Shown here one piece after another: positions 2,882 through 7,803 of a DNA stretch of 8,717 bases. The DNA is from a bacterium (lineage in GTDB: Bacteria; Blakebacterota; Blakebacteria; Blakebacterales; Blakebacteraceae). Below the pieces are notes generated by a model, which was not told the DNA's origin, made no database searches, and saw nothing but the letters and a program-made list of their open reading frames with translations. The position numbers and the translations under genes were made by a program. The stretch's first letter is position 1. Every line of letters begins with the position of its first letter. The stretch spans positions 1-8,717 of the forward strand of contig JALGWK010000312.1 of NCBI GenBank assembly GCA_025774205.1, given 5' to 3'.

Positions 2882-3961
2882 ATGCGACTGGCCATGGTGG
2901 GTCCGCCTCTATCCGGAAAGACCACGCTCTTCGGCGTGCTGACCGGACTCGATACCTCCGGGGGCAGCAGCAGTGAGGGCGGCGTGCATCTCGGTGTCTT
3001 CCGGGTTCCCGATCCGCGACTCGATCGTCTGGCCGCGGCCATCCCCCATCCGAAGGTCACCCCGGTTTCGATCGAGGTGGCGGATATCCCCGGATTCTCC
3101 CGGAACGATTCGAGGGGTTTCGACGAGAAAGTCCTCGGCCCTGCCCGGATCGCGGACGCGTTGCTGGTGGTGATCCGCGCCTTCGAGGACCCCACCGTGC
3201 CTCACCCGGCCGGGATCGTGGACCCGGTAGCCGATCTCGAAGCGTGCTGGACCGACCTGGTGATCGCCGATCTCGTCAGTTCCGAGAAACGCCTGGTGAA
3301 GCTGCGTGAACTGATCGGCAAGGCCGGCGCCGATCACGATGAAACGGTTGAAGCCGGGGCGCTCGCCCGGGTGGTCGAAGTTCTCGAACAGGGTCAGGGA
3401 GTCGGAGAGGTGGACCTGTCACCTGAAGAGGAGCGGCTGCTGCGTGGTTTCGGTTTCCTGACGGCGAAACCGCTCGTGGTGGTCATGAACATCAGTGATG
3501 AGCAGGCCTCCTCCGACCCCGATGCCCGCTGGAGCGGATGGAGTGCTGCCCGGGAGGCGGGCCTGGTATCGGTCCCCGGTGATCTGCTTGCGGAACTCGA
3601 CCGGCTGTCAGATGATGAATCAACTCTGTTCGCTGAGGAGTACGGAATCGACCCGGGCCAGGCCCTGATGATCATCGAGACAGCCTGGCAGACGCTCGAT
3701 GTGGTAACCTTCTACACCGCCACGGGGGGAGAGGAACTGAGGGCGTGGACCCTGAGAACGGGTGAGACGGCCCTTGAAGCGGCCGGGGCGATCCATTCCG
3801 ACCTCGCTCGCGGTTTCATCAGGGCGGAAGTCATCGGAGTGGAGGCACTTATCGGAGCGGGATCGTGGGCTGAAGCCCGCAAAGCCGGACTGGTACGACA
3901 GGAGGGAAAGACGTACCGTGTAAAGGATGGTGACGTCATGAACATCAGATTCGCGATCTGA
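2882..3961 (+). CDS. Divergent YchF/Obg-like family GTPase or ATPase (DUF933 domain)
   Basis: The protein has the YchF/OLA1 layout and length (359 residues). The P-loop is GPPLSGKT (7-14), G3 is DIPG (68-71), and NISD (203-206) sits where YchF has its NxxE motif, which lets it bind ATP. FEDPTVPHPAGIVDPVADLE (101-120) and LVIADL are strongly YchF-like. The C-terminal TGS-like/DUF933 domain spans about 272-357, with TFYTATGGEELRAWTLRTG, AAGAIHSDLARGFIRAEVI and YRVKDGDVMNIRF. YchF proteins bind ribosomes and nucleotides and affect stress responses. Unlike canonical YchF, the NVGKS P-loop and the NYPF-type switch I are missing, and G3 is followed by SRNDSRG instead of the usual Gly-rich switch II. 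It is therefore probably a paralogue. GGGAG (2871-2875) lies 6 bases before ATG. It opens the operon-like run. Confidence 0.87.
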   Translation: MRLAMVGPPLSGKTTLFGVLTGLDTSGGSSSEGGVHLGVFRVPDPRLDRLAAAIPHPKVTPVSIEVADIPGFSRNDSRGFDEKVLGPARIADALLVVIRAFEDPTVPHPAGIVDPVADLEACWTDLVIADLVSSEKRLVKLRELIGKAGADHDETVEAGALARVVEVLEQGQGVGEVDLSPEEERLLRGFGFLTAKPLVVVMNISDEQASSDPDARWSGWSAAREAGLVSVPGDLLAELDRLSDDESTLFAEEYGIDPGQALMIIETAWQTLDVVTFYTATGGEELRAWTLRTGETALEAAGAIHSDLARGFIRAEVIGVEALIGAGSWAEARKAGLVRQEGKTYRVKDGDVMNIRFAI

Positions 3962-3993: not shown

Positions 3994-4413
3994 ATGAATG
4001 ATATCTACCGAGTGATCGACAACCTGGCGGTGAAACGCGGCCGGTATTCACCGGAGGCGTATTATTTCACCCTGGACGCGCTGAACCGGACCGTTGCCGG
4101 GCTTTCCGTCAGGCGTCATCTCTCCGGTCCCGAACTCCTGGCAGGCATTGTCCGGGTGGCCTCAGAGCGGTTCGGTCCCGACACCCGGCACATCTTCGAC
4201 AGCTGGGGGGTCTCGGTGACCGGGGATTTCGGCAATATCATCTTCGATCTGGTCGATATCGGTCTTCTGAGCAAGACCGATGATGACAGGCCTGAGGATT
4301 TCGCGGATGTGTTCGATCTCGACGAGGCCATCTCGGAGGAGCGCTGGCGACAGCGGTGGCGTATCCCCGGTACCGCCCGTCTCGTCGGACCGATGGAGGA
4401 TCTGCTCTCATGA
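3994..4413 (+). CDS. Minf_1886 family protein, function unknown
   Basis: The 139-residue protein matches my recollection of the Minf_1886 family, a small cytoplasmic family of unknown function found in many poorly cultured phyla. Recognisable blocks are RYSPEAYYFTLDALNRTV (17-34), RRHLSGPELLAGI (40-52), RFGPDTRHIFDSWGVSVTGDFGNI (59-82, written here in part) and FDLVDIGLLSKTDDDRPEDF (84-103). The core is predicted to be mostly helical, with an acidic then basic tail (DEAISEERWRQRWRIP). I chose ATG 3994, where the family's N-terminus normally begins; an in-frame GTG at 3982 would add four residues and has no better ribosome site. The gene starts 32 bases after the YchF-like stop, and its TGA overlaps the next ATG (ATGA at 4410-4413), indicating co-translation with hldA. 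Function is not known and I infer none beyond the genetic link. Confidence 0.82.
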   Translation: MNDIYRVIDNLAVKRGRYSPEAYYFTLDALNRTVAGLSVRRHLSGPELLAGIVRVASERFGPDTRHIFDSWGVSVTGDFGNIIFDLVDIGLLSKTDDDRPEDFADVFDLDEAISEERWRQRWRIPGTARLVGPMEDLLS

Positions 4414-5408
4414 CCCGCCTGACGGGAGATCGGATCCGTGAACTGCTCAAGAGTGTGAGCGACCGCGCAGTCCTCATCATCGGGGACGTGATGCTCGACA
4501 AGTACGTCTGGGGGCATGTGCGACGGATGTCCCCGGAGGCGCCGGTACCGGTGGTGGAGGTGGAACGGGAAGCGTTTCACCTGGGAGGCGCGGCCAACGT
4601 GGCCAGCAATGTCCTCTCCCTGGGCGCGGAACCGCTCCTGGTCGGGTTGAGGGGAGCGGACGATCCGGCCGGCAGTGAATTGACGGGTTTAATGGATTCG
4701 AAAGGCCTTCGAACCACCGGCCTGCTGATCGATCCCGACCGCCAGACGACAGTCAAAACGAGGATCATCGCCCACCAGCAGCATGTGGTGCGCGCCGACC
4801 GCGAAGACCGGACAGCGGCCGAAGGAGAGGTCGCGACACGTCTCTGCGATTTCGTCGAAGGGGCACTGGAGACGGTGGACGCGGTGATCCTTCAGGATTA
4901 CAACAAGGGGGTCCTCTCCAGCGAAGTCCTTGAACGTCTGCTGCCTCTCCTGCACGAGTCGGGACTTCCGGTTGCGGTCGACCCAAAATTCGAACGCTTT
5001 TTCGATTTTCGGGGTGTCACCCTCTTCAAACCGAATGTGAGTGAAGTCGAGATGGCGCTCAGCACGAACCTGGTGGATGAAGAGAGTGTCATCCAGGCCG
5101 CGCGGATCATCCAGAAGAGACTCGAAGCGGCCAATGTGCTTATCACCAGGGGATCCCGGGGGATGACCCTTCTGGAGGAAGACGGCACCACCACCCAGGT
5201 AGGGGCCCGGGCGCGTCAGGTGTACGATGTCTCCGGAGCCGGCGATACGGTCATCGCCACCATCACCGCGATGCTTGCGGCGGGGGCGGATATACTGGAG
5301 GCCGCTACCGTGGCCGGATACGCGGCCGGAGTCGTGGTGGGTGAGGTGGGCGCGGTCCCCATCCGGGCCGAGGCGCTTATGGCCGCGGTGGATGAAGACA
5401 ATGAATGA
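4410..5408 (+). CDS. hldA: D-glycero-beta-D-manno-heptose-7-phosphate kinase (HldA / RfaE1 domain)
   Basis: This ribokinase/PfkB-family kinase phosphorylates D-glycero-D-manno-heptose 7-phosphate at C1 with ATP, an early cytoplasmic step toward ADP-L-glycero-D-manno-heptose for the LPS inner core. In the 332-residue product the family signature is GDVMLDKYVWGHVRRMSPEA (25-44), substrate-site glycines are in HLGGAANVASNV (57-68), and the C-terminal kinase motif DVSGAGDT (273-280) holds the catalytic base D279 and the anion-hole glycines. It corresponds to the N-terminal half of the bifunctional E. coli HldE. The start at 4410 is supported by GGAGG (4395-4399) 10 bases upstream and by the ATGA overlap with the preceding stop; the frame is open further upstream, to ATG 4356, but that stretch has no family similarity. 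Its end overlaps hldC by 8 bases. Confidence 0.95.
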   Translation: MTRLTGDRIRELLKSVSDRAVLIIGDVMLDKYVWGHVRRMSPEAPVPVVEVEREAFHLGGAANVASNVLSLGAEPLLVGLRGADDPAGSELTGLMDSKGLRTTGLLIDPDRQTTVKTRIIAHQQHVVRADREDRTAAEGEVATRLCDFVEGALETVDAVILQDYNKGVLSSEVLERLLPLLHESGLPVAVDPKFERFFDFRGVTLFKPNVSEVEMALSTNLVDEESVIQAARIIQKRLEAANVLITRGSRGMTLLEEDGTTTQVGARARQVYDVSGAGDTVIATITAMLAAGADILEAATVAGYAAGVVVGEVGAVPIRAEALMAAVDEDNE

Positions 5409-5850
5409 GGTGTGCGTGGAATGGCGGCAGTCGGGCCTGAAGGTGGTATTCACGAACGGAGTTTTCGATCTCCTCCATCGGGGGCACGTCGAGTACCTCG
5501 CGGAAGCCCGGTCACTTGGGGACCGTCTGGTTGTAGGTGTCAATGACGACCAATCAACCCGCGCTCTCGGCAAGGGACCCGACCGGCCGCTCAATCCGGT
5601 CGACGACCGTCTCGTCGTTCTGGCCGGACTTGAAGCGGTCGATCTACTGGTGCCCTTCCACGAGGAGACGCCGTTGGAACTGATCACGCTCCTGCGGCCG
5701 CAGGTACTGGTCAAGGGTGGAGACTATACTGAAGAAGAAGTAGTGGGAGCGGCGGAAGTTCGCGCCGATGGCGGTGAAGTGGTGCTGGTCCGGCTGCGGA
5801 AGGGACACTCGACCTCCAACCTCCTCGAGCGCGTCCGGGAGAGCTCATGA
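5401..5850 (+). CDS. hldC: D-glycero-beta-D-manno-heptose-1-phosphate adenylyltransferase (HldC / RfaE2 domain)
   Basis: A 149-residue nucleotidyltransferase that joins AMP from ATP to heptose 1-phosphate, giving ADP-D-glycero-beta-D-manno-heptose and pyrophosphate. The cytidylyltransferase-like fold is shown by TNGVFDLLHRGH (18-29), with the HxGH motif H26-R-G-H29. KGGDYTEEEVVGAAEV (105-120) and the late GHSTSNLLERV (135-145), which matches the STS-type nucleotide-binding motif, are also typical of RfaE2. It equals the C-terminal half of HldE, here a separate protein. ATG 5401 overlaps the hldA stop (ATGAATGA) and has GGTGG (5387-5391) 9 bases upstream; ATG 5392, three codons earlier, is possible. 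Its own TGA overlaps the next start (ATGA, 5847-5850). The partner enzymes GmhA, GmhB and HldD are not in the window. Confidence 0.95.
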   Translation: MNEVCVEWRQSGLKVVFTNGVFDLLHRGHVEYLAEARSLGDRLVVGVNDDQSTRALGKGPDRPLNPVDDRLVVLAGLEAVDLLVPFHEETPLELITLLRPQVLVKGGDYTEEEVVGAAEVRADGGEVVLVRLRKGHSTSNLLERVRESS

Positions 5851-7085
5851 GCGGAAGTGCCGGGGAATCTCTGTTTGCGGTCAAGGCTCAGAGGCTGCTG
5901 CGGGAGGGCGAGGTGGAGGGGGCCCTGCGACTGGGACGGGAGGGAGTGGCGATCCATCCCGATTACGCCACAGGTCGCCTGATCCTCGGACTCACATGCC
6001 TTGCGGCCGGTGAGCTGGAGGAGGCGCGCTCCGAGTTGGAAGCAGCACGGGAACTGGATGGTCCCGCGCCGGCGCTTCTGCAGGCGCTGACACTATGCTA
6101 CGATGGACTCGGCCAGACAGACCTGGCGACGGAGTGCCGGATGCTCGGTGAGGGATTCGGCCAGGATCCGTTGATTGATGAATACGAGGGAGGGCCGGAG
6201 ATGGTTGAAGAGAGAGACGACAGCCTGGACCCGGGGGATGAGGAAGTCGAAACAGACGAAGGACCCCGCGCGATGTTCGAGATCGGAGATGAAGCGGGAT
6301 CCCCTGAAGATGCTCTGAAGGAACTCGAGGCGCTTCTTTCCGGCGCCGGTTCCTCGCTCGAAGGTGAGGCGATCGGGGAGGAGGCATCCGATGGGGATGA
6401 CCTGTCCACGATCGAGGTGCCGGCCGACATCGGCGGTGCTGCTCTTGATGAGGATGAGCTGCTGACGGTCGAGGTGCCGGCCGACGCCGGTGGTGCTGCT
6501 CCTGATGAGGCTCCGTCGGAGGAGGAAGACAAATCTGAGCTATGGGCCCAGATCCTGGAACAGGCGGATGTGGTCGAAGAGGTAGACAGCCCGGAACCTG
6601 TAGCCAGAGCGTTCGATCTGGACGCGGGCCTGGATACCGGGACACCGATGGTCGAGGAGGTAGACAGCCCGGAACCTGTAGCCAGAGCACTCGATCTGGA
6701 TGCGGGTCTGGATACCGGGACGCCGATGGTCGAGGAGGTAGACAGCCCGGAACCTGTAGCCAGAGTGCTCGATCTGGACGCGGGTCTGGATACCGGGACA
6801 CCGATGGTCGAGGAGGTCGGCGCGCTTGATCTGGACGCGGGCCTGGATACCGGGACACCGAAGGTCGAGGAGGTCGGCGCGCTTGATCTGGACGCGGGCC
6901 TGGATACCGGGACACCGAAACGCGGGCCTGGATACCGGGACACCGAAGGTCGAGGAGGTCGAAGCGATCGATCTCGATACTCCCCTCGATCTGGAGGGTT
7001 TGGTAGCGTTCGACACCAATGTAGATCCGATCGAAGGGCTGGAGGTGTCCACTCCCGGCGGCGAAGTCGATATCGGCATCGTTGA
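5847..7085 (+). CDS. Acidic TPR-repeat protein, as sequenced truncated by a frameshift (N-terminal part)
   Basis: The 412-codon frame encodes a soluble protein with no signal peptide or membrane segment. Residues about 8-106 form roughly three TPR-like helical hairpins (AVKAQRLLREGEVEGALRLG; TGRLILGLTCLAAGELEEAR; ALTLCYDGLGQTDLATE), usually protein-binding. From about 110 it becomes very acidic and low in complexity, with two 19-residue repeats (184-221), then three 26-residue and two 19-residue repeats (243-358). After K358 the frame changes because of a 28-bp duplication, and the last 54 residues (17 of them Arg) are out-of-frame translation, not real protein. GGGAG (5837-5841) stands 5 bases before the ATG, which overlaps the hldC stop. 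The undamaged product would be 642 residues, ending at 7803. I do not recognise a named family; the TPR plus acidic-repeat layout suggests a scaffold or assembly factor, which is inference. Confidence 0.8.
   Translation: MSGSAGESLFAVKAQRLLREGEVEGALRLGREGVAIHPDYATGRLILGLTCLAAGELEEARSELEAARELDGPAPALLQALTLCYDGLGQTDLATECRMLGEGFGQDPLIDEYEGGPEMVEERDDSLDPGDEEVETDEGPRAMFEIGDEAGSPEDALKELEALLSGAGSSLEGEAIGEEASDGDDLSTIEVPADIGGAALDEDELLTVEVPADAGGAAPDEAPSEEEDKSELWAQILEQADVVEEVDSPEPVARAFDLDAGLDTGTPMVEEVDSPEPVARALDLDAGLDTGTPMVEEVDSPEPVARVLDLDAGLDTGTPMVEEVGALDLDAGLDTGTPKVEEVGALDLDAGLDTGTPKRGPGYRDTEGRGGRSDRSRYSPRSGGFGSVRHQCRSDRRAGGVHSRRRSRYRHR
6396..6509 (+). repeat. Two tandem 57-bp coding repeats (first repeat block of the TPR gene)
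   Basis: Units 6396-6452 and 6453-6509 encode DDLSTIEVPADIGGAALDE and DELLTVEVPADAGGAAPDE, 19 residues each. They are clearly related but more diverged than the second block. The 19-residue length equals that of the short units at 6807-6920, although the sequences differ. Confidence 0.75.
6573..6920 (+). repeat. Minisatellite: three 78-bp and two 57-bp tandem coding repeats
   Basis: Long units at 6573-6650, 6651-6728 and 6729-6806 encode 26 residues each, of the pattern VEEVDSPEPVARALDLDAG followed by LDTGTPM. Short units at 6807-6863 and 6864-6920 encode VEEVGALDLDAGLDTGTPK, lacking the DSPEPVAR part. Neighbouring long copies differ at about 4-6 of 78 bases; the two short copies at one base. 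Both unit lengths are multiples of three, so they keep the frame. The near-identity indicates recent expansion or ongoing homogenisation. Confidence 0.92.
6892..6947 (+). repeat. Exact 28-bp tandem duplication that breaks the TPR gene frame
   Basis: Bases 6892-6919 and 6920-6947 are identical (each begins ACGCGGGCCTGG and ends GACACCGAA). Each copy is half of a 57-bp repeat unit. One extra 28-bp copy shifts the frame by one; deleting either copy joins GTPK to VEEVEAIDLD with no other change. Confidence 0.93.
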
Positions 7086-7803
7086 GGGAACGGATAACGC
7101 GAGCCTTGAAGCCGGCCTGGAAGACATCGATATCGGTAGTGAGGATATTCTGATCCCGGGCCCGGTTGAACTCACCGACGAAGCGCTCGACACGGTTTCC
7201 GAAGGGCTCGAACTCGACGATCCACTCGCGGTGACGCCGACCGGTAATGAAGATGTGGCGGGGGTGACCGACGATGAGGTGTCGAACGAAATACTCGATC
7301 TGACAGATGCGGAAGCTGATGATCTCGAAGTCGATGATGTCCTGAAATCCCTGGAGGCTGAACTCGAAACCGGATCGTTATCCGATGATGGGGCCGGATC
7401 GCTCCAGAAAGACGATCCCATCCCCATGGATGAGGCGTCGGTGAATATCGGTCTGGATGATGAGGACGTTCCGCTCGATTTGGACCAGGTGCTGGACGAC
7501 CTCGGCGAAAGTGAGGATATCAAGCCAGTGGCTGATGAGAAACAGGGATCCGGTGAAAAGACTGACGATGAGCCGAAGGTAGACTGGGTCGTAGGCGTGG
7601 CGGGTCTGTCGACCCAGATCGAGAATAACGATGACGCGATCCGGGTCGCGATAGAAGCTGAGATCCTGGTCGGCAAGGGGAAGTACAAGGAGGCAGTAAG
7701 ACTCTTTGAAGCCCTCCAGCTCTGGGAACCGGACCGGGAATCGTATCGGATCAAACTGGAAGATCTGCGGCGCCTGGCGAAGCAGTCCGAATTGTCGGAT
7801 TAA
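6922..7803 (+). pseudogene. Continuation of the acidic TPR protein in the +1-shifted frame (C-terminal part)
   Basis: From 6922 the repeat protein continues in the next frame (AGLDTGTPKVEEVEAIDLD), joining exactly where the second 28-bp copy begins. About 290 further residues follow. Most are acidic and rich in Asp, Glu, Leu and Val (LDLTDAEADDLEVDDVLKSL, DVPLDLDQVLDDLGES). The last 75 or so are a more ordered domain: DWVVGVAGLSTQIENNDDAI, then EAEILVGKGKYKEAVRLFEALQLWEPDRESYRIKLEDLRRLAKQ, a TPR-like helix pair at the C-terminus. This conserved-looking domain, with normal codon use up to the TAA, suggests the gene was recently intact. No good separate start is visible: ATG 6826 precedes the junction and would read the repeats out of frame. 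It is labelled broken only because of the sequenced duplication. Confidence 0.7.

Follow-up and report, generated by a model that had tools for sequence, protein, structure and literature searches.

In phase-variable coding repeats, the contingency loci known for example from Neisseria, a coding frame contains a repeat with a length other than a multiple of three. The locus examined here resembles such loci in that a non-triplet repeat, a sequence of 28 bp that is present twice, is located inside the coding frame of a gene for a TPR-containing protein. It differs from them in several respects: instead of a short unit in many copies there are only two copies of the 28-mer, the other units of the tract being 57 and 78 bp long; one state only is seen; the gene of a same-genus genome does not carry the unit; and housekeeping genes elsewhere in the assembly show the same signature. 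Chen et al. 2020 (PMC7111523) count among the local errors in assembled metagenomes both duplicate sequence that scaffolding leaves at overlapping ends and local repeats with a wrong number of units. Where they are not curated, such errors enter public databases as incorrect protein-coding genes. Duplicated overlap sequence, miscounted local repeats and wrong genes resulting from them all have their likeness at the present locus, whereas the overlapping ends are separated by Ns in PMC7111523 and the copies here abut without Ns. Our data indicate that the 28-bp doubling is very probably a local assembly error, either in a join or in a repeat count, because many exact doublings occur in unrelated genes of the same draft, including that of a core metabolic enzyme, and because the TPR gene is whole in the nearest relative.

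The window, i.e. the whole stretch of 8,717 nucleotides that was analysed, contains two abutting 28-mers that are identical at 28 of 28 positions (ACGCGGGCCTGGATACCGGGACACCGAA; Table 1). The match between them extends by 0 bases on either side, and the doubling thus ends abruptly. Tandem Repeats Finder scored it at 100%, and the random expectation for a 28-bp doubling is about 6e-13 per window. It is situated at the 3' end of a coding repeat tract that encodes the acidic motif DLDAGLDTGTP.VEEV and contains exact repeats of 57, 43 and 42 bp; a third exact copy of the 28-mer is found at 6835, inside a 57-bp unit. Apart from 28 bp, the tract has periods of 57 and 78 bp, each divisible by three. 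The upstream frame hits a stop codon (7083-7085) shortly past the doubling, and the conserved C-terminal part sits in the downstream frame. A preliminary description of this DNA had claimed that two identical adjacent 28-bp copies frameshift the TPR gene and that every other repeat unit is a multiple of three, and the positions, the identity, the out-of-frame stop, the downstream frame and the periods all agree with it. A point that it missed is that 57 = 28 + 29. Reading the letters as a further 57-bp unit minus 29 bp is as good as reading them as an extra 28-bp copy, both readings have the common junction 6919/6920, and the frame break therefore need not be due to an extra 28-bp copy. Comparison of the bases flanking the copies revealed no microhomology at this junction, so there is no sign that it originated by strand slippage or by recombination between short repeats.

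Table 1. Features of the TPR gene in the window and further non-triplet doublings in other contigs of the draft
Feature	Sequence	Position	Strand	Remarks
TPR gene, N-terminal part as assembled	window	5847..7085	+	412 codons, out-of-frame end; Pfam TPR_14, TPR_19
Coding repeat tract	window	6571..6947	+	78-bp then 57-bp units; in frame save at the junction
First 28-bp copy	window	6892..6919	+	part of genuine 57-bp coding repeat unit 6863-6919
Second identical 28-bp copy	window	6920..6947	+	most likely unmerged contig overlap or miscounted repeat unit
TPR gene, C-terminal part	window	6928..7803	+	frame shifted by one; 50% identity to in-frame C-terminal part of G001
Non-triplet doubling	L076	3874-4015		70 bp
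Non-triplet doubling	L090	2886-2983		49 bp
Non-triplet doubling	L104	4179-4236		29 bp
Non-triplet doubling	L105	689-769		40 bp
Non-triplet doubling	L126	756-823		32 bp

In the window itself, a frame test based on composition gave no guidance, the right flank having its highest score on the minus strand, and protein homology was therefore used there. With a profile derived from relatives, the first part of the gene aligned to profile positions 1-317 and, in a different frame, the second part to 251-546; in the set of genomes searched with this profile, the phylum is represented by four genomes. A same-genus genome (G001) carries the TPR gene as one frame of 562 codons without the 28-bp doubling, in the same neighbourhood of heptose-7-phosphate kinase, heptose-1-phosphate adenylyltransferase, TPR gene and Xaa-Pro-type peptidase. 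The G001 protein is 61% identical in the N-terminal part and 50% identical in the C-terminal part, and a 57-bp (19-residue) doublet is present at the matching place. These results confirm the earlier view that the gene is otherwise a single frame. The underlying gene is a real, ordinary TPR gene with in-frame 57- and 78-bp repeats that encode an acidic linker. In a same-family genome (G002), the gene is distributed over two contigs: C162 ends and C59 starts within the tract, and the residues ADTVEQAD are common to both ends. The tract, with its internal repeats of up to 57 bp, is thus a known break point of a draft assembly. A wider search of contigs for relatives returned only two, seemingly G001 and G002. 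The acidic linker (6571-6919 in the window; contig 310 in G001) has a period of 19 residues (57 bp) in both species, while the repeats themselves differ; repeat number and sequence of the linker seem to turn over with the frame retained. In the window, the heptose kinase and the adenylyltransferase (rfaE domains I and II; 4410-5850) are two adjacent genes and not a fused hldE.

The intact frame of G001 also bears on the idea that ribosomes are programmed to shift frame over the doubling and so yield one protein. The two frames do overlap between the doubling and the stop codon that ends at 7085. However, the break is not conserved, since the G001 gene requires no frameshift and hence offers no conserved signal, and we know of no frameshift signal that consists of an exact 28-bp doubling. 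The preliminary description was right to doubt this mechanism, whose probability we regard as practically negligible.

Contig 109, which the window covers in full, belongs to a fragmented draft of 3.09 Mb in 527 contigs that is 86% complete. To survey this draft for similar doublings, 100 other contigs were sampled; 28 of them were excluded because they read as N, leaving 72 contigs with 486,098 bases. In this sample, 13 sequences of 21-70 bp are exactly duplicated in tandem as two copies, a density of roughly 2.7 per 100 kb, and their junctions show 0-4 bp of additional match. Seven have periods that are not a multiple of three (28, 22, 70, 49, 29, 40 and 32 bp) and are located in unrelated genes; 7 of 13 is about the two thirds expected were coding frames irrelevant. 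The period modulo 3 equals the shift of the best coding frame exactly at five of the seven non-triplet sites; the remaining two do not pass this frame test, and not every doubling lies cleanly within a gene. As a control, a finished replicon of similar G+C content was used (Sinorhizobium meliloti pSymB, a single replicon of an unrelated cultured species), and no doubling of at least 20 bp was found in 500,000 bases (binomial p of about 1e-4 for the draft compared with this control). The draft of G001 showed four doublings in 358,919 bases, none of them with a period that is a multiple of three. Real duplications may be among the 13, most of all among those whose period is a multiple of three.

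Two of the seven non-triplet doublings split identifiable genes. On contig 10 (L045), an exact doubling of 22 bp (375-418) cuts the gene for pyruvate phosphate dikinase into two frames, the upstream piece matching positions 479-609 of TIGR01828 and the downstream piece, in the other frame, positions 605-864. The enzyme is whole in both relatives, as single frames of 926 codons in G001 (95-96% identity) and 907 codons in G002 (78-82% identity), and a search of the present genome for a second good copy found none. A switch or a null mutation in this enzyme is implausible, and the doubling in it belongs to the same class as the 28-bp doubling in the TPR gene. On contig 7 (L042), an exact doubling with a period of 28 bp (1484-1540) splits a gene for a TonB-type receptor on the minus strand with a shift of frame.

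Of the three options that the preliminary description had left for the TPR gene, an assembly error is strongly supported by the like doublings across the draft together with the intact gene of G001, and the other two, the reversible switch of its title and a fresh null mutation, are not supported: unrelated genes of the assembly, some of them housekeeping genes, carry many doublings that are equally exact and often not a multiple of three in length. It is extremely unlikely that gain and loss of a 28-bp copy turns the gene on and off. Two exact copies could in principle recombine to one, and 28 is not divisible by three, but the remaining units of the tract all preserve the frame, the single same-genus genome compared has no 28-bp unit, and unrelated genes bear the same signature. 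A real and fresh null mutation in the sampled population, whether 28 bp were duplicated or a 57-bp unit lost 29 bp, would have disabled the gene. Genuine copy changes are common in repeat tracts such as the one in which the doubling sits, and the good preservation of both halves of the gene would fit a very recent event. On the other hand, the junction lacks microhomology, and the mutation would be one among many similar events within this one genome, including the one in pyruvate phosphate dikinase; we consider it very unlikely. We give even less credence to the thought that the acidic linker of this Latescibacterota-type TPR protein might undergo repeat-number change at a high rate, with an occasional error of 28 or 29 bp silencing the gene in part of the population.

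The error probably arose in the following way. In the living cell, the gene very probably encodes, in one uninterrupted frame, a TPR-containing protein whose linker consists of acidic repeats. Short reads would not suffice to place the units of 57 and 78 bp, and the assembly would have halted within the repeats. Two pieces with the same 28 bp at their ends were then presumably joined with the overlap left unmerged; equivalently, one 57-bp unit was miscounted, with 29 bp lost. Either course would leave two exact copies and shift the frame by +1. We infer that the genome is a short-read draft, as well as the particular assembler step that made the join; the junction itself, at which the copies are joined directly without Ns, does not pinpoint this step. 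Three short internal runs of N in the sampled contigs suggest that the draft was scaffolded. These runs are not flanked by an overlap of at least 10 bp, so that they did not reveal the direct intermediate expected of an unmerged overlap.

The doubling is thus most probably not a real feature of the genome and reveals no new biology. It does call for caution, as this draft is rich in exact two-copy doublings of about 20-70 bp, and these often break the frame. Split genes, apparent pseudogenes and 'switches' that are inferred from it call for checking at the level of the reads. Elsewhere in the window, a YchF-like GTPase (2882-3961) scores 221 bits against a family cut-off of 279 and is thus a divergent member of its family.
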